A stretch of 40,052 nucleotides of DNA, from the IMG/VR virus record IMGVR_UViG_3300047491_000169, positions 1-40,052 of that record, one strand, 5' to 3'. The notes under the pieces are model-generated. The model was not told where the DNA came from. It ran no database searches and worked only from the letters and a program-made list of their open reading frames with translations. This document shows positions 9,442 through 40,052 of this stretch, one piece after another (within the stretch, counting starts at the first letter, position 1; every line of letters starts with the position of its first letter). This DNA is from a virus. A program made the translations under genes and the position numbers.

Positions 9442-9466
9442 GCTCCTTTCCATTCGGACTGTTGTT

Positions 9467-9490
9467 CATAGCAATTGTGGGTGTTTTATT
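9467..9490 (-). promoter_or_regulatory. Phage RNA polymerase promoter P1 (candidate)
   Basis: On the minus strand it reads TAAAACACCCACAATTG followed by CTATG. The same element occurs at 11998-12020, 17278-17297 and 38536-38557, always intergenic and facing the genes. The part ACCCACAATTG aligns with ACTCACTATAG of the T7 promoter, which would put the start at the final G. It sits right after the RNA polymerase gene, like T7 phi1.1, so it may also serve as the replication origin. Confidence 0.75.
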
Positions 9491-9514
9491 AAATTGCTCC
9501 TGTAGTGCAACTAT

Positions 9515-11965
9515 TCAGGCGAAGAAATACAAGGCTTCCCGTACTTGCTCTAGGTCAAAGTCACCACGAACTAGCGGAGCAGGTAAACGATCTGCTAGTT
9601 CAGTTGGTACTTGATCCACAAGCTGCTGCCTAAACCTAGCTAGTTGATCCACCTCGTACATCTCGATGAACTTCTCTCGCAAGGTGATAGCCATCTCCTG
9701 TACGTCACAAGCGTGGGTGCCATAAGAGTCATGCACCATAGCGAATCCTGTAATGCCAGCATCCAGCATCCCATTCACCGTAGCCATCATATGTGCTGCA
9801 TCGAAGGAGTGAATCACGTTAGGGCTAATACCCAGAGCATTACGTCTAGTGTTCTGCTTTTTCAGGGGATCATAGACAAGTGTACGGACACGGTAGTTAC
9901 CAACCGTTGTATCCAAACGCCTCTCCTTTACGTTGCGATAAGACTGCATAACAGGTAATCCAACAGGGGTAGTCCAACGTACAGGCAATCCATTTTCACT
10001 AACGACATGGGCACACTCCATCAACCAGCCCATGACTTTAGGTGCAGCTTCCACCGTGGTACCAATATGCTTGATGATTAACTCAGACAGATACTTCAGG
10101 TGATCGAAGTCCTGCTGACCATCAGGTACACCCAGCCACTCACGGAACTTACCATCGGTAGCCTTATGTAGATCCTCCTTGAGCTGCTCTAGCATCCCGT
10201 ACTTGGTAGCCCCGTAGCTGACTGTCATCACGTTACGTTTGACTACGCTGCGTTTAATCTTGCCCTGCCATAGCATTGCCAACTCGTTACCATTCTTAGC
10301 ATCTTCAGCTACATCATGGGCTACTGCATCAGCTACCGTCTGGTAGATGTCAGCAGGTTTCTGAGCGTCCACTAGGTTGGTATTGATTGCACCGTAGCTA
10401 TCCAAAGCCAAGGCACTAAGGTGCTGAAGCCCATTACACGACCCGTCTAAGCTAACCGGAAGGTGGCATGGGTAGTCTGCTCCATGCTCAAGGTAATCAG
10501 CATAGGCAAAGCAAGCGGCTAGAAATTGCCAAGCCTTACCGCCACCATCAGCTTCAGTCCAGAACAGGTTACCCAGAGGATCATTAGCCACAGCTTTGAT
10601 CTGTTCTTCGTGCATCATTGTCCAGAGGATACGGTCTTCGTAGCTCACCTTATCCACACCAAAGCAGTTCGCTAGGTGGATACGTAGCCAGGTCAAACCA
10701 GTCTCACCCAGAGGTTTACCTTCAGCAAACTCCAGCAAACCTTTAGCTGCATCCTGCCCTTGTGGGTTAAGTACACCCACGACTGGATACATACGACCAC
10801 GCCAGTCCATCTGATAGGGGAACCAGAACTGTTCATAGTTCTTCAAACGATCAGCACAGTTGATGATCTTCAGTAGGGCTACGATCTTTGACTGACGGCG
10901 ATTGTTGCTGTCACGAATACGCTTACGCTCTACCTTGAACTGCTCCCATTCCTCCTTGTGATTGTCTCGGTATTCCTTAACAGTTTCCTTAGTGGAATCT
11001 TCTGGTAAGCCTCCTGGCAATGGGTTGAGTTCGATAATCTCCCGTGAAGGTAGACCAGCCAGAGTAGAACTAGATTTCCATAGCTCTAGGAGTACCTCGT
11101 AAACACGTTTGTTGAGCCGCCAAGGGGTTTCCTGCATAGCGTTGATGCTGCGATATACCTCAGGCATAGAAACGTGCTGTAGCTCTTCTAAATACCCTGT
11201 GTTACGGGTCTTAATCAGGGGCAGACGTTGCGTGACATACCCGCCATTAGTCGGGGTAGACCAAGGTGCAGGTTTAATAACCATAGGCATATATACAGGG
11301 TTCATTAACTCACAGCGTGAATGTAATTCCTTAAGCTGTTCCATAGCTTTAGGTGTAGCTTTAATCAACGTAGGTTTATTCAGACTAATTGTTCTTACTT
11401 CTATTAACCCTGTTACCTGTTCAAAGATTTTAATTAAAGCTGTACCAAGAATTAACTTAGCATCATGTTTGAATCTAGGTCTTTCAATACCGGCTATCTT
11501 AGTGTAGTTCTTCATACACTTAGCTTGATAATGTTCAATAGAAAATTTACTGACCTTTTTAGTGGCTCTCTTGAAGAAGTCTGGATTAGTAGTTTTGAAT
11601 TTAGTTAAAACAATATGGTCTTCAATGTTCTGACCAATTCTAATTGCTACAGTATTAACTGTACCTTCAGAAGATAAACAGTTTAAGATTGTTTTAGAAG
11701 TTATATATGCTACTGTTTCAGGATCTGTATCACGTAAGTAAGATATAGAAATACTTTTCTTACCTGGCTTCCCATTATAAGTTGATTCAACTAATTCTTT
11801 TATAGCTGACGCTAAAGGTTTAATAGCATTAACCATAAAGAATCTTTGAGGTGTCATCATGGTTTCAGCTTTATTAACCATTGCTTCAGTTAATTGTTTC
11901 CGGTATCGGTTAATACCTTCTTCAACCATCAAAGTCTCAAGTTCTAGTTGGTCTTGTAGATCCAT
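9515..11965 (-). CDS. Single-subunit RNA polymerase, T7 type
   Basis: An 816-residue DNA-dependent RNA polymerase (T7 gp1 is 883). Motif A is PVSLDGSCNGLQH with Asp507, motif B is VVKRNVMTVSYGATKYG with Tyr584, and motif C is AMVHDSYGTH with Asp746; the C-terminus ends in FFA as in the T7 foot. The first 220 or so codons are clearly more AT-rich than the rest. The gene is flanked by near-identical promoter copies (9467-9490 and 11998-12020) and by an identical 12-mer (9503-9514 and 12066-12077). It is probably first transcribed by host RNA polymerase from 12073-12101, then by itself. Function is certain. Confidence 0.98.
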   Translation of the reverse strand: MDLQDQLELETLMVEEGINRYRKQLTEAMVNKAETMMTPQRFFMVNAIKPLASAIKELVESTYNGKPGKKSISISYLRDTDPETVAYITSKTILNCLSSEGTVNTVAIRIGQNIEDHIVLTKFKTTNPDFFKRATKKVSKFSIEHYQAKCMKNYTKIAGIERPRFKHDAKLILGTALIKIFEQVTGLIEVRTISLNKPTLIKATPKAMEQLKELHSRCELMNPVYMPMVIKPAPWSTPTNGGYVTQRLPLIKTRNTGYLEELQHVSMPEVYRSINAMQETPWRLNKRVYEVLLELWKSSSTLAGLPSREIIELNPLPGGLPEDSTKETVKEYRDNHKEEWEQFKVERKRIRDSNNRRQSKIVALLKIINCADRLKNYEQFWFPYQMDWRGRMYPVVGVLNPQGQDAAKGLLEFAEGKPLGETGLTWLRIHLANCFGVDKVSYEDRILWTMMHEEQIKAVANDPLGNLFWTEADGGGKAWQFLAACFAYADYLEHGADYPCHLPVSLDGSCNGLQHLSALALDSYGAINTNLVDAQKPADIYQTVADAVAHDVAEDAKNGNELAMLWQGKIKRSVVKRNVMTVSYGATKYGMLEQLKEDLHKATDGKFREWLGVPDGQQDFDHLKYLSELIIKHIGTTVEAAPKVMGWLMECAHVVSENGLPVRWTTPVGLPVMQSYRNVKERRLDTTVGNYRVRTLVYDPLKKQNTRRNALGISPNVIHSFDAAHMMATVNGMLDAGITGFAMVHDSYGTHACDVQEMAITLREKFIEMYEVDQLARFRQQLVDQVPTELADRLPAPLVRGDFDLEQVREALYFFA

Positions 11966-11997
11966 CTTATCTCTCCTAATGGTATAGCTATGCAGGT

Positions 11998-12020
11998 CAT
12001 AGCAATTGTGGGTGTTTTAC
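11998..12020 (-). promoter_or_regulatory. Phage RNA polymerase promoter P2 (candidate)
   Basis: It carries the same minus-strand core as P1 (TAAAACACCCACAATTG, then CTATG), 33 bp before the RNA polymerase start codon. It would let the polymerase transcribe its own gene. Its identity with P1 over 21 bp is the strongest evidence that the element is functional. Confidence 0.75.
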
Positions 12021-12072
12021 TATTTGTTACACTAACGAAGGCATCATGCTACCAGAAGCCTACGATAGTGCA

Positions 12073-12101
12073 ACTATATTTCTGAGCAAAAATTGACACA
12101 A
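12073..12101 (-). promoter_or_regulatory. Host sigma70-like promoter toward RNA polymerase gene
   Basis: On the minus strand, TTGTGT and TATAGT are separated by exactly 17 bp (12096-12101 and 12073-12078). It lies 108 bp upstream of the RNA polymerase ATG and would give host-driven expression of the polymerase. The -35 box lies inside a tandem 12-bp repeat (12089-12112), a possible control point. Confidence 0.55.
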
Positions 12102-12112
12102 AAATTGGCACA
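12089..12112. repeat. Tandem 12-bp repeat over the -35 region
   Basis: AAAATTGACACA is followed directly by AAAATTGGCACA (one mismatch). It covers the -35 box of the minus-strand promoter and sits between it and the divergent plus-strand promoter, a natural operator position. Confidence 0.6.
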
Positions 12113-12134
12113 ATCCTTCAAGTGAAATCTTAAG

Positions 12135-12163
12135 TTGCACTTCAGGAAAACTTTTGATATAGT
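12135..12163 (+). promoter_or_regulatory. Plus-strand sigma70-like promoter facing the tRNA-Gln core
   Basis: TTGCAC at 12135-12140 and TATAGT at 12158-12163 are 17 bp apart on the plus strand. All genes run the other way, so this promoter has no phage gene to serve. It points at the tRNA-Gln 5' half 47 bp downstream, with a small hairpin (12182-12194, TGGCT/AGCCA) in between. Confidence 0.6.
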
Positions 12164-12209
12164 CCTAGTCCTTGCTAGTCATGGCTTTGAGCCAGGTCTA
12201 ACAAAGTGT

Positions 12210-12251
12210 TGGGGAGTCGCCAAGCTGGTTAAGGCACCGGATTTTGATTCC
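12210..12251 (+). other. attP core: 5' half of a tRNA-Gln(UUG) gene
   Basis: 42 bp on the plus strand match the start of a bacterial tRNA-Gln gene: acceptor strand TGGGGAG, D arm GCC...GGC with AAGCTGGTTAA loop, then CCGGA, the anticodon loop TTTTGAT (anticodon TTG), and TCC. After 12251 the sequence departs from tRNA: the anticodon stem is not closed and no T arm or full acceptor pairing follows. A partial tRNA near an integrase is the standard mark of a phage attachment site. Integration at the host gene would rebuild a full tRNA with a phage-derived 5' end. Confidence 0.85.
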
Positions 12252-12290
12252 TCTGCATGAACTCTTCGAGTACGCTTCCCGCTTTATTTA

Positions 12291-12497
12291 TCAATTACTT
12301 AGCGTATCTCCCAACGAAATATCCCCTAGCTTTTCTGGCACAGTTTCGTCACAAGACTCAGCATCATTCACGCCAGAAGTTTCTACCTTAGTGGAAGCTT
12401 TCTTTTTACCAAAGATTAAGTCGTAGTTATTACGATAGTTCTCATTAGACTGGCGAGTTTGAATTGCATCCCCAGTAATATCGTTAATTGCTGCCAT
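12291..12497 (-). CDS. Conserved hypothetical phage protein, 68 aa
   Basis: A 68-residue protein. Its N-terminal part, MAAINDITGDAIQTRQSN followed by YRNNYDLIFGKKK, resembles a small protein often found in phages (ITGD near the start, then a Y-x3-YDxIFGKK block), whose role is unknown to me. The C-terminal half is acidic and Ser/Thr-rich, probably disordered. AAAGGAG precedes the ATG by 5 nt. It is the last gene before the attachment core, and a plus-strand transcript from 12135-12163 would be antisense to it. Confidence 0.75.
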   Translation of the reverse strand: MAAINDITGDAIQTRQSNENYRNNYDLIFGKKKASTKVETSGVNDAESCDETVPEKLGDISLGDTLSN

Positions 12498-12967: not shown

Positions 12968-13980
12968 GCTGCTCTCCTTTTCTCTAGTAAATCTTTAGCC
13001 TGATTAAGTTTCATATTGGTCATCTTTGCGTATCTCAGAGTGGTCTCAATACTCTTATGACCGAGCCACTCTTTAACGGTATAAATATCCACACCAGCTT
13101 CCAGTAGTCGGGTGGCACAGGTGTGCCTACAGGTGTGTAATACCCATTCAGAGTCTTCGATAGAGTTAGCTTCTCTAAAGTCTTGCATTAGCTTGCAAGC
13201 GATGTTCTTATTGAGCGTAGGAAATGCCCCTGAGCCTTGCGCTAACCCCTCTAGAATCGATTTAACTCGGTCAGTCATAGGTATGCCTCTCCCCTCATCA
13301 TTTTTAGTGCGTTCAAAACGAACATAGCCAGACTGAGTGACATCTTTACCCGTGATACGGAGTGCTTCACTCAAACGTGCCCCAGTATCAAAAAGAATGA
13401 CAACAAGATCAGCCATCTCAGGCTTAGGGCAGTTCTTAAACCACTCAATCATTCGATCTTCTTCCTCGTAGGTGAACACACGGGTACGTGCATTACGCTC
13501 AGGGAGAAGCTTGAAGGTAGGGATAGTCAGCTCTACATCCCACTCATCCTTTGCGATGTGCATCACAGAGGACAGGACAGCTAACTTACGATTGATCGTG
13601 CCATTGGCTAGCCCAGTCTCCATAAGATCCTCTTTAAGCTGGGCTACGGTGGAGCTAGAGATGGTCTTTAGGATTACTTCACCACCTACAAGCTTCTTAA
13701 GCTGCTTGGCTATGGTGTTGTACCCAGACCAATCCTTATTGCCATCCCAGGTTGTACGTAAAGCACGCTCTAAAGCTACGGATAGGGTCATCTCCTTTAC
13801 CGCAGATGCCACCTTAGTGGAATCAATAGATAGCACAAGGCCACCATTTACCCCAGCTAGTAGCTCCTTCGCTTTAGCTTTTGCTTCTCGCTTGCTGCTG
13901 GTATCCAGAGAGATACGCTTACGCTTGCCCTCTATGGTTGCATCGAGATACCAGAAGTCATCTCTAAGATATAGCTTCAT
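12964..13980 (-). CDS. int: Tyrosine-family integrase
   Basis: A 338-residue tyrosine recombinase for site-specific integration and, with a helper, excision. An N-terminal arm-binding-like region (residues 1-60) precedes a core-binding SAM-like domain (about 65-160) and the catalytic domain. Catalytic residues: Arg202 (DTGARLSEAL), Lys226 (ERTKNDEG), His282 and Arg285 (LHTCRHTCATR), His308 (WLGHKS) and nucleophile Tyr317 (TTLRYAKM). All are present, so it should be active. It overlaps the winged-helix gene by 17 bp. The tRNA-Gln core lies 713 bp downstream. The order integrase then RNA polymerase is that of temperate T7-like phages such as cyanophage P-SSP7. Confidence 0.96.
   Translation of the reverse strand: MKLYLRDDFWYLDATIEGKRKRISLDTSSKREAKAKAKELLAGVNGGLVLSIDSTKVASAVKEMTLSVALERALRTTWDGNKDWSGYNTIAKQLKKLVGGEVILKTISSSTVAQLKEDLMETGLANGTINRKLAVLSSVMHIAKDEWDVELTIPTFKLLPERNARTRVFTYEEEDRMIEWFKNCPKPEMADLVVILFDTGARLSEALRITGKDVTQSGYVRFERTKNDEGRGIPMTDRVKSILEGLAQGSGAFPTLNKNIACKLMQDFREANSIEDSEWVLHTCRHTCATRLLEAGVDIYTVKEWLGHKSIETTLRYAKMTNMKLNQAKDLLEKRRAA
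13839..13854 (+). repeat. 16-bp element, copy 1 (inside integrase gene)
   Basis: GGCCACCATTTACCCC. It matches the two intergenic copies at 14359-14374 and 14536-14551 in the same orientation, with at most two differences (positions 1 and 5). This copy codes for AGVNG in the integrase. Confidence 0.6.
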
Positions 13981-14338
13981 TTAAGAACCTCACTCCTGAA
14001 ATAAACATACGTTCACGAATCTCTTTACCAAACTTGGTTAGGTGCAGATACTTAACTCGTCTATCTGTTTGATCGTGTACGTATTCACACAAGGCAAAAC
14101 CACCATCCTTACGAAGCTTTGAGGATGCTGTGAGAATCTGACAATTACGGGTAAGTGTTGCTGACGATAGATCAGGGAACAGCCTACCCATATCAGAGAC
14201 TTTAGGCGGTGTCTTTTCATTGATTGCAAGGAAGAACAGCACAGTATGTAGAGGAACATCAGCACCCCCGATAGCATCACGGAAAACCATAAGGCCATCA
14301 CGGAGCGTCTGTTCATACATTGCTTGGTTAATACTCAT
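13964..14338 (-). CDS. MarR-like winged-helix protein, candidate lysogeny regulator
   Basis: A 124-residue protein with the shape of a MarR-type winged helix. VPLHTVLFFLAINEKTPPKV would be the first helices, SDMGRLFPDLSSATLTRNCQ the helix-turn-helix (about 48-67), and GFALCEYVHDQTDRRVKYLH the wing with its D-x-DRR-like sequence, followed by LTKFGKEI, the typical opening of the dimer helix. It is cotranscribed with the integrase (17-bp overlap). Copies of a 16-bp element lie within its upstream region (14359-14374, 14536-14551), so autoregulation is plausible. Fold assignment is likely; a repressor role is inference. Confidence 0.75.
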   Translation of the reverse strand: MSINQAMYEQTLRDGLMVFRDAIGGADVPLHTVLFFLAINEKTPPKVSDMGRLFPDLSSATLTRNCQILTASSKLRKDGGFALCEYVHDQTDRRVKYLHLTKFGKEIRERMFISGVRFLNEAIS

Positions 14339-15315: not shown

Positions 15316-15633
15316 TTAAGCCCCTTCCCAAATAGACTTGCCGTTGAGGTGTAACGTGCCCTTAATGCTCTTTAGATCAGCACCTAAAGCACGGAGGCGT
15401 GAGCGTGTAGTCATTGAAGGCCAACGGCATAGAGTGCTAATGCATACCTCTAGCGGCTTGTCTTGGTGATGCCAGAACTCAGCAATCAGGTTATTGTGTA
15501 AATACACCTCAGAGCGTGACCCGTAGGGATTGCCACTCTCTGCCGCTGATATGAAATAAACAGAGGTGTTGTCCTTGTGCCAGTCTCTCTTTTCGGTAAC
15601 AGCCTGAAGCATCTCTTTTTCGATCTTACGCAT
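15316..15633 (-). CDS. Conserved hypothetical early protein, 105 aa
   Basis: It starts MRKIEKEMLQAVTEKRDW and includes TSVYFISA, SEVYLHNNLIAEFWHH, STLCRWPSMTTRSRLRALG and a final HLNGKSIWEGA. The order KIEKxMLxA, V-Y-L-H-N, TTRSRLxALG is one I recall from small proteins of other T7-like phages, all uncharacterised. AAAGGAGG stands before the ATG within the repeated leader sequence described separately. In the early operon. Confidence 0.75.
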   Translation of the reverse strand: MRKIEKEMLQAVTEKRDWHKDNTSVYFISAAESGNPYGSRSEVYLHNNLIAEFWHHQDKPLEVCISTLCRWPSMTTRSRLRALGADLKSIKGTLHLNGKSIWEGA

Positions 15634-17264: not shown

Positions 17265-17277
17265 TTTCTCTTCCCAC

Positions 17278-17297
17278 CAACTATGGGTGTTTTATTA
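17278..17297 (-). promoter_or_regulatory. Phage RNA polymerase promoter P3 (candidate)
   Basis: Minus-strand TAAAACACCCATAGTTG, one of four copies. It lies 44 bp after the terminase stop, like the T7 phiOR promoter, which is used for end replication and transcription into the right end. It faces the small membrane gene and the heptamer array. Confidence 0.7.
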
Positions 17298-38502: not shown

Positions 38503-38535
38503 AGTTGTTCCTTTAGGAAGGTTAGAAAACCTTTC

Positions 38536-38557
38536 CTAGCAATTATGGGTGTTTTAT
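38536..38557 (-). promoter_or_regulatory. Phage RNA polymerase promoter P4 (candidate)
   Basis: Minus-strand TAAAACACCCATAATTG followed by CTAGG, 34 bp before the first morphogenesis gene. It would drive the late block. A CCAGGG/CCCTGG inverted repeat (38558-38563, 38578-38583) lies just upstream in transcription, after the reductase stop; it may end part of the reductase transcripts. Confidence 0.75.
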
Positions 38558-38608: not shown

Positions 38609-40052
38609 TTACCGAATTGGACAGGCACCACCAGCACATTCATCCATCTGTAGCTCTTCGAGGGTATTTGCCTCTTCAAGATTCAATGGTTGGAGTGTCT
38701 GGAAATAGGTTTCATATTGCTCTTTAGTTACTACTTCTTGAGGCAAATATAAATAACCTAAATCCTTGGCTGATTTAGTTGGGTCTGCTCTGAAAAGAAA
38801 ACTAACCCCAACGTAAACATCCCAGTTTTCAATTAACCAGTTAATAATATCTTCTATTTCATCAACTGAATAACTAATAGTGGCTGAGACATTTTGCTGA
38901 CACCAACTCTGCATTAACATTTTATAACGCTCAAGTTGATTAACAGCCGACTCTAGATTAACCTCAAGTTCTTTACCATTCATATTAACTTTGTCGAATG
39001 GAACGTCATCCCAACATACTGGGAAAGTAATAAGAACTGATTCAGGATCTACTGGATTATCGACAACTTTGTAACCAGCAGCACGGCATTGGGGAACCAA
39101 AGGGTCATGCTTAGAGAAGTTCACATTGTTGAAGACATACTTACCTAAGGGCTTATGAACCCCCTCAGTAGTGTCCATGATTTTTGAGAGAGTTCCTGAG
39201 GGCTTAACGGTGGTGACATTCTTAGGGCGTGGTAACCCAAGCTCGTCAGCCATCCCGTAAGCTCCCGCAGTAGCCGTTCGGTTGAGGTCTTCGTAGTCGT
39301 AAGCTTTAAGGTCAGGTCTCCGCACGATACCAGTAAGTCCAACACCACAGAGTCGGAGGAACTCGTTGTTAAGGTGCCAGGCTTCCTGGAGGATGCCATC
39401 ACGTAGATCCACACAGGTCTGCCGGAAATTTGCCCTAGCAGCAAGGTGTATAGCTCTTCGCAGTCCTGAAGAGTCTCCTTTGAATTTGCCAACATCCACC
39501 TCAGTTAGGTTACAGAAGCTCTTGTTACCCAGCAGAATCTCAGCACATGGGTTGCATCCCTTAAACCAAGGGGCACGTTTAGCTGCTGTCTGGGCATTGA
39601 TAAAGCCAGGCTCAGAACCACCAGCCTCAACCATCAGGTCGAAGATGTGCTGGAGTTGTTCTTTAGTTGGCTTACTCTTGAAGAGCAGAGAGTTATTGGA
39701 TTGACCACGTTGAGGGTTAGATAACCAGTAGTCTTTCTTAGCGGTAGCAAACTCTTCCCACTCGTCTTCACCATAGTTAAACAGAGCAATCTCTGCACTA
39801 CGGCGAGAGCTGAGGATCGTACCCATCCAGTTCACAATGTCCAGGATGTCGATACGAGTCAGCAGGGAGCCAGCTCGTTTGTTCAGGATCTGGAAGATAG
39901 CTGTATAGGCTTTGGTAATAGCAGCATCACCAGAGCTGATCCAGCCGTAGCCCTTGAGACGTTCACCCGCAGGGCGAATCTCAGAGAAGTCTAGGACTAG
40001 CTTCTTAGCTGGGTAAGGGTGGGCAAGGATCTTACCTACAGACTTAGCCCAG
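38609..40052 (-). CDS. nrdJ: Class II ribonucleotide reductase, C-terminal part
   Basis: This is the rest of the reductase; the frame joins 1-657 across the circle (39926-40052 repeats 1-127). Counting from the ATG at 657, the catalytic loop NPCAEI gives Asn344, Cys346 (thiyl radical) and Glu348, and SFCNLTE gives Cys357. The 11-residue distance between the two cysteines equals that of C408 and C419 in L. leichmannii reductase, with Cys99 as partner. The C-terminus CAGGACPIR has the CxxxxC pair (649, 654) that passes electrons from thioredoxin-type donors. The last 170 or so codons are more AT-rich than the rest. All catalytic residues are present. Confidence 0.95.
   Translation of the reverse strand, partial: WAKSVGKILAHPYPAKKLVLDFSEIRPAGERLKGYGWISSGDAAITKAYTAIFQILNKRAGSLLTRIDILDIVNWMGTILSSRRSAEIALFNYGEDEWEEFATAKKDYWLSNPQRGQSNNSLLFKSKPTKEQLQHIFDLMVEAGGSEPGFINAQTAAKRAPWFKGCNPCAEILLGNKSFCNLTEVDVGKFKGDSSGLRRAIHLAARANFRQTCVDLRDGILQEAWHLNNEFLRLCGVGLTGIVRRPDLKAYDYEDLNRTATAGAYGMADELGLPRPKNVTTVKPSGTLSKIMDTTEGVHKPLGKYVFNNVNFSKHDPLVPQCRAAGYKVVDNPVDPESVLITFPVCWDDVPFDKVNMNGKELEVNLESAVNQLERYKMLMQSWCQQNVSATISYSVDEIEDIINWLIENWDVYVGVSFLFRADPTKSAKDLGYLYLPQEVVTKEQYETYFQTLQPLNLEEANTLEELQMDECAGGACPIR
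39926..40052. repeat. Terminal overlap of a circular contig, right copy
   Basis: Identical to 1-127. With the overlap removed, the reductase is one uninterrupted frame of 657 codons plus stop. Confidence 0.95.

Follow-up and report, generated by a model that had tools for sequence, protein, structure and literature searches.

The attachment site of a T7-like phage may rebuild a single-copy host tRNA-Gln gene and supply its promoter

Tyrosine integrases that target a tRNA gene are usually described as copying its 3′ half, which leaves the gene under the promoter it already has. What, then, would transcribe the tRNA if a phage carried the 5′ half instead? We addressed this question on a 40,052-nucleotide viral sequence (IMG/VR virus record IMGVR_UViG_3300047491_000169; the whole stretch is referred to below as the window), in which an earlier note, made from the sequence alone, had singled out such a half together with a promoter in front of it. 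The features on which the analysis relies are collected in Table 1.

The window carries 127-bp direct terminal repeats (1-127 = 39926-40052) and is therefore most likely a complete free-phage genome of ~39.9 kb, with a G+C content of ~46–47%. Judged by its genes, it is most likely a complete T7-like temperate phage: the T7-type RNA polymerase (RNAP) expected of an Autographiviridae-type phage is present, and so is a tyrosine integrase gene (int) that adjoins RNAP and is preceded by a regulator gene. Terminase, head-tail adaptor, tail-fibre proteins and ribonucleotide reductase are encoded as well. The phage attachment site (attP) sits between int and RNAP, and the int–attP–RNAP order and direction are those of the temperate T7-like phages P-SSP7, HTVC105P, LUZ100 and YIMV22061; in the first three of these, MarR genes occupy the position that matches the small regulator of the window. 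Separately, a small protein encoded at 15316-15633 on the minus strand matches the Pfam family Kyano_Gp96 (PF23790, E 6e-15), which is named after Kyanoviridae.

Table 1. Features of the window around attP, with positions counted from its first letter (strand "." where the feature is palindromic)
Feature	Position	Strand	Evidence or remark
attP common core, nt 1-42 of tRNA-Gln(UUG), TGGGGAGTCGCCAAGCTGGTTAAGGCACCGGATTTTGATTCC	12210..12251	+	exact match, single
-35 box TTGCAC of candidate tRNA promoter	12135..12140	+	3/6 to consensus TTGACA
Extended -10 TGA-TATAGT of candidate tRNA promoter	12155..12163	+	start expected near 12170
46 bp from -10 to tRNA nt 1	12164..12209	+	position only
Terminator-like hairpin, would end plus-strand transcripts entering from the core	12376..12401	+	weak; inside opposite-strand ORF
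Palindrome O2, AAGTTGCACTT, over -35 of candidate tRNA promoter	12132..12142	.	WAGTTGCACTW pattern
Palindrome O1, TAGTTGCACTA, over -10 of RNAP-side promoter	12066..12076	.	WAGTTGCACTW pattern
Palindrome O3, TAGTTGCACTA, directly behind RNAP gene	9503..9513	.	16 bp before second phage-type promoter copy
Candidate host-type RNAP promoter TTGTGT-17-TATAGT	12073..12101	-	weight-matrix score 7.9; divergent from candidate tRNA promoter
Candidate phage-RNAP promoter AAAACACCCACAATTGCTATGA before RNAP	11997..12018	-	repeated in window
T7-type single-subunit RNA polymerase gene, 816 aa	9515..11965	-	PHROG 414, E 3.9e-240, full length
Tyrosine integrase gene (int), 338 aa	12964..13980	-	PHROG 1, E 5.6e-53; PF00589, E 7.4e-21
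Small transcriptional regulator directly upstream of int	13964..14338	-	PHROG 9665 'transcriptional regulator', E 2.2e-9

The attachment core had been read as the 5′ end of tRNA-Gln(UUG), and this reading holds. The core reproduces nucleotides 1-42 of the tRNA without a mismatch, covering its 5′ half through the anticodon loop plus three pairs of the anticodon stem, and it is identical at 42/42 positions to the tRNA-Gln(UUG) genes of many Betaproteobacteria, Methylophilaceae, Rhodocyclales and Alcaligenaceae included. It occurs once in the window and never in shuffled sequence. The identity breaks off exactly after TTGATTCC: the phage continues with TCTGCATG where the tRNA reads GGCATGC. Matching a host tRNA from nucleotide 1 and stopping at nucleotide 42, short of the tRNA 3′ end, the core is a 5′ half and not a conventional 3′ half. 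A pattern made of the inner 32 nt of the core found at least 118 loci in GTDB genomes, nearly all of them in Betaproteobacteria. Neither ARAGORN nor Rfam at its gathering cutoff detects a whole tRNA in the window, and folding of the half-tRNA transcript gave nothing beyond shuffles. The polarity of the core is consistent with the earlier proposal that integration would give the host gene a phage-derived 5′ side. The accompanying remark that this is not the end which most phages copy is correct in general, but not for T7-like temperate phages, in which 5′ halves are common.

The host is probably a betaproteobacterium of the Methylophilaceae, as judged from the G+C content of the window and from its RNAP, for which, in the genomes searched, a prophage from the Methylophilus family gives the best match (43%, 631 bits); weaker matches come from Pseudomonadota (579 bits), Burkholderiales (506 bits) and sequenced phages (at most 533 bits among the matches listed). 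Searches of 20, 187, 399 and 398 genomes with the RNAP of the window returned distant prophages and none of the window phage. Host prophage searches with a T7-type RNAP covered Methylophilaceae, Burkholderiales and Pseudomonadota as well as one additional class, and again yielded distant prophages only. In 17/17 candidate-host genomes tRNA-Gln(UUG) is single-copy, a copy number which suggests that the gene is essential for the host. An ORF ends no more than 60 nt upstream of it in 62 of the 110 loci checked. At one locus this ORF is ispE (TIGR00154, 265 bits; L016), and at another (L042) the order is lolB-like, ispE-like, tRNA-Gln, a hairpin with a T run, prs-like and rplY-like, these protein genes being named from their sequences and not by family search. 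The order ispE–tRNA–prs is the Methylophilaceae context, with tRNA-Gln(UUG) commonly lying directly behind ispE. No promoter-like site precedes tRNA-Gln in 13 Methylophilaceae-type upstream regions (mean z for sigma70-like sites −0.40); the mean z for the upstream regions of all 111 hosts is 0.35. Since the single-copy tRNA-Gln lies directly behind ispE, an insertion would cut it off from the upstream operon. Both this context and the absence of a promoter-like site before the gene in Methylophilaceae speak for the earlier interpretation.

Does the phage offer a substitute? The TTGCAC-17-TATAGT boxes that the earlier note had described upstream of the core are indeed in place. The −35 box is poor, but the extended −10 is good: TATAGT (12158-12163) matches the consensus at 5/6 positions and is preceded by TG at 12155-12156. 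Because its −35 box reaches only 3/6, the site is missed by a consensus scanner that demands 4/6 per box. With a weight matrix that takes the extended −10 into account it scores 9.4, whereas shuffling its own 100 bp gives 4.7 ± 1.6 (p = 0.009). It is the third-best sigma70-like site on the plus strand of the 40 kb. Four plus-strand sites in the 40 kb reach 9.4, which translates into a chance of ~0.005 for a 55-bp interval; for a site at this place, p is about 0.005–0.01. The region 11900-12420 holds no other plus-strand site scoring 7 or more. As the large ORFs nearby are all on the minus strand, the candidate promoter faces no phage gene, just as had been claimed. The stretch between the −10 box and the first tRNA nucleotide would be a transcribed leader for RNase P to remove.

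The weak TTGCAC box may have a second function. It is part of a palindrome, AAGTTGCACTT, of which further copies lie at the promoter of RNAP and behind that gene, and it may therefore act as an operator. The pattern WAGTTGCACTW, with at most one mismatch, is found 10 times in the window against 3.5 expected, and 0/100 shuffles reach 10. We considered that these palindromes could be arm sites for the integrase; that a third perfect copy is located behind RNAP (9503) favours a transcriptional operator. O2 is thus likely to be the operator of a phage regulator, and as the divergent promoters share an overlapping palindrome, such a regulator may set both. The candidate phage-type promoter AAAACACCCACAATTGCTATGA recurs on the minus strand exactly at 9487, with two mismatches at 38555 and with five at 17293. 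The corresponding AAAACACCCAYAATTGCTAKGA-like repeat (minus strand; 9466-9487, 11997-12018, 17272-17293 and 38534-38555) is probably the promoter of the phage RNA polymerase, and one copy precedes the RNAP gene itself, as in LUZ100.

An integrase alignment and four single integrases yielded ~280 loci of relatives; viral contigs searched for the 41-nt core, for a less strict version of it and for peptides of the window integrase yielded none. We detected 5′ halves with a tRNA descriptor and reference halves, the descriptor producing one hit in 1.19 Mb of composition-shuffled sequence. The arrangement is not unique. A tRNA 5′ half is also present in P-SSP7, in pelagiphages and in further T7-like phages: P-SSP7, HTVC105P, HTVC134P, S-CBP1 and many IMG/VR phages have one, from tRNA-Leu, -Arg or -Trp, between int and RNAP. 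In a first set of 21 representatives, the window included, the 100 bp upstream of the half on the tRNA strand are enriched in sigma70-like sites, with a mean z of 1.60 (above 1.64 in 10/21), as compared with −0.31 on the opposite strand and 0.20 and 0.11 in the downstream flank (Wilcoxon p = 1.2e-4, 2.4e-3 and 5.9e-4), the rows being not fully independent as three are P-SSP7-like. Fifteen related phages that have no tRNA between int and RNAP give a mean z of −0.21 (94 segments scored; p = 9e-5 against the 5′-half set). In 14 relatives that carry a whole tRNA at this place the mean z is 1.51 in the sense and 0.01 in the antisense direction. Within the P-SSP7 lineage, down to 67% integrase identity, a TATAAT block and the tRNA half are kept and the flanks vary. 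A good upstream site is absent from the Methylophilaceae tRNA-Leu phages of this set, from one further phage (L171) and from S-CBP1.

Two further integrase searches produced a second set, in which 73 of 116 loci have a sense half, falling into 22 independent clusters of which ~20 are Synechococcus-type. These 22 clusters display no upstream enrichment (z 0.15 sense, −0.06 antisense); the Synechococcus group has a z of −0.03 with a wider range. As the second set did not repeat the result, the enrichment, although clear in the first set, does not hold for all relatives when a generic matrix is used. Synechococcus phages (L140, L393-L457), those of the second set among them, keep TGnTAnnnT ~60 bp upstream of the tRNA-Leu half and have a conserved GAGTCCNATCGCTGGAATCC directly before it; these blocks may be a leader, an integrase site or a promoter. 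In most of these relatives RNAP follows downstream on the promoter's strand and could be served by it as well. We considered that RNAP, and not the tRNA, is the target of the enriched promoters; the lack of enrichment in the control phages without a tRNA argues against this, as does the window promoter, which faces away from RNAP. G253 and the integrase matches of G087 on C53 and C151 were set aside, as they had no readable attachment site or were unrelated integrases.

Core identity, gene order, promoter boxes, enrichment in one set of relatives and a single-copy host gene are all observed. Their best explanation, to which we assign a probability of roughly two in three, is that attP of this T7-like phage rebuilds the single host tRNA-Gln(UUG) gene and supplies its candidate promoter. 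From these observations we infer how the window phage would integrate, how the promoter would act and how it would be regulated. Recombination by the integrase between the 42-bp core and the anticodon region of the single tRNA-Gln(UUG) gene of the host would produce a rebuilt gene that consists of a phage leader, phage nucleotides 1-42 and the host 3′ half; since the phage copy holds tRNA nucleotides 1-42, the gene would acquire a phage 5′ side and the mature tRNA would be unchanged. Insertion would cut the host tRNA off from the ispE operon, and it is for this loss that the phage would place an extended −10 promoter before tRNA nucleotide 1. Pointing away from the phage genes, this candidate promoter would transcribe the rebuilt tRNA in the lysogen and might extend to prs, the next gene. 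What was the 5′ side of the host gene, with its own 5′-half tRNA, would now be read into phage DNA past 12252, antisense to the lysogeny genes. The candidate tRNA and RNAP promoters would form a divergent pair under the same palindrome, both perhaps set by a phage regulator. Here lies the main weak point of the proposal, as the regulator may either repress or activate the tRNA promoter in the lysogen: a repressor bound to the −35 palindrome during lysogeny would shut the promoter exactly when it is needed.

It is unlikely, if worth serious consideration, that the plus-strand site is a chance occurrence or a regulator site, with the tRNA transcribed by leakage from other phage promoters or viable lysogens arising rarely or never. 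The poor −35 box within the repeated palindrome AAGTTGCACTT and the second set of relatives would fit this, as would the finding that the T7-like cyanophages P-SSP7 and S-TIP37 integrate at a tRNA-Leu half, as shown experimentally, without forming stable lysogens (PMC8776855). However, the score of the whole site is among the top four on the plus strand of the 40 kb, the first set shows an enrichment before its 5′ halves that is absent from the matched controls, and 11900-12420 holds no further plus-strand site with a score of at least 7. Considerably less probable is that, in the free phage, the promoter makes a short plus-strand RNA running through the half tRNA as far as the hairpin at 12376-12401 or past it; this RNA would be antisense to the int side of the operon, and the promoter would precede the half only by coincidence. 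All genes there are on the minus strand and the terminator-like hairpin would suit such an RNA, but the site is also found in relatives that have the half on the int strand, where the RNA would not be antisense to int. Finally, we regard it as very improbable that the core was not selected for attachment and is what remains of a whole phage tRNA-Gln gene after decay of the 3′ half: whole tRNA-Leu genes at or near attP in many relatives and a weak match of a 71-position tRNA model to 12210-12269 would agree with it, but that relaxed Rfam match reaches 14.6 bits, far under the 29-bit cutoff, the 42-nt identity is exact and stops abruptly, and the 5′-half format recurs in the tRNA-Leu, -Arg and -Trp copies of relatives.

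The tRNA half is oriented differently in the window than in most relatives. The tRNA half is on the int strand in 20/20 relatives of the first set, and its upstream side is therefore int, whereas in the window the half is on the strand opposite to int, with the promoter region of RNAP upstream of it. We found one other phage with the polarity of the window (L448), in which a tRNA-Leu 5′ half lies antisense to int, near 1574-1613 on the minus strand. The common type can be seen integrated in a genome of the family of Methylophilus (G087), where host DNA is followed by the tRNA-Leu 5′ half and then by phage DNA leading into RNAP; of this prophage the RNAP-side junction alone is assembled, the int-side junction being missing from the assembly. 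In this layout the host promoter faces RNAP, whereas in the layout of the window it would face the int side in the antisense direction, toward the hairpin at 12376-12401. Among the tRNA-Leu halves of the G087 type, four phages (L131, L148, L157 and L162) keep CACCCG(G) directly after the half with varying neighbours, and this motif is complementary to the tRNA 5′ end CGGGTG.

P-SSP7, S-TIP37 and the pelagiphages resemble the window in gene order, and P-SSP7, HTVC105P, S-CBP1 and HTVC134P also have a 5′-half attP core. They differ in that the half is on the int strand, so that the host promoter would face RNAP, and they use tRNA-Leu or -Arg and not tRNA-Gln. Integration at 5′ halves has been described as seldom in bacteria; the archaeal pTN3-type integrases of Thermococcus use the 5′ half of tRNA-Leu as attP, with 41 bp shared, and the rebuilt tRNA loses its original promoter and is expressed from sequence of the element (PMC8371274, PMC5495485). 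However, pTN3 is an archaeal plasmid whose int is disrupted on integration, whereas int of the window, with the core outside it, would stay intact, and the promoter candidate of the window is a dedicated bacterial-type site. Islands and prophages specific for dusA replace the 5′ end and promoter region of the gene with element sequence bearing putative −10 and −35 boxes (PMC4482086), but their target is a protein-coding gene and not a tRNA. The mycobacteriophages Fionnbharth and Gaia offset the loss of an essential host tRNA and supply a promoter (PMC10865867). The tRNA they bring is complete, and their core, of only ~10 bp, leaves the host gene unrestored, in contrast to the core of the window, whose 42 nt would rebuild it; the two marks of such tRNA-dependent lysogeny, a whole tRNA of the same isotype and a short non-rebuilding core, are both absent from the window. 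Our literature search, which was incomplete, found no paper that describes, for T7-like phages, a core of 5′-half polarity or a tRNA promoter of phage origin, and this is weak evidence of novelty.

Tentatively, and with less confidence than for the window itself, one could generalise that a T7-like lineage captures the 5′ half of an essential tRNA together with a dedicated promoter, such that integration would amount to an exchange of promoters: the tRNA would come under phage control and the host promoter would pass to the phage. In the P-SSP7 type, where that promoter would face RNAP, this could explain integration without stable lysogeny, and the reversed orientation of the window would avoid it. 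If true, an essential host tRNA would depend on viral DNA in every lysogen of a common marine and freshwater phage lineage, and loss or repression of the prophage would be tied to host viability. Because the two wirings differ in whether RNAP is faced by the host tRNA promoter, the puzzle of why T7-like phages integrate without stable lysogeny becomes directly testable.

Other attachment layouts occur among these phages. LUZ100, HTVC200P, MedDCM-S28-C10 and YIMV22061 (L126, L133, L136 and L122) carry a whole tRNA-Leu(UAA) antisense to int, and elsewhere near int only a short anticodon-loop match of the GACTTAAAA type. In the literature this layout is taken for a remnant of imprecise excision; tRNA-dependent lysogeny would account for it. 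A T7-like prophage of Pseudomonadota fits tRNA-dependent lysogeny as well (G934:C7; L324/L325, 119976-120004 and ~161413-162700). Here the host tRNA-Leu(UAG) is split, with its 5′ half at the RNAP side and its 3′ half at the int side, neither of them restored, and the prophage carries a whole, different tRNA-Leu(UAG) antisense directly upstream of int; the split host half and the whole phage tRNA are the only two UAG 5′ halves in the genome that match the pattern. Lastly, a T7-like prophage in the family of Methylophilus (G069:C1; L127-L129, ~1168884-1209300) sits in the conventional 3′-half manner at tRNA-Leu(UAG), and related integrases therefore use the 5′ half, the 3′ half or a whole tRNA.
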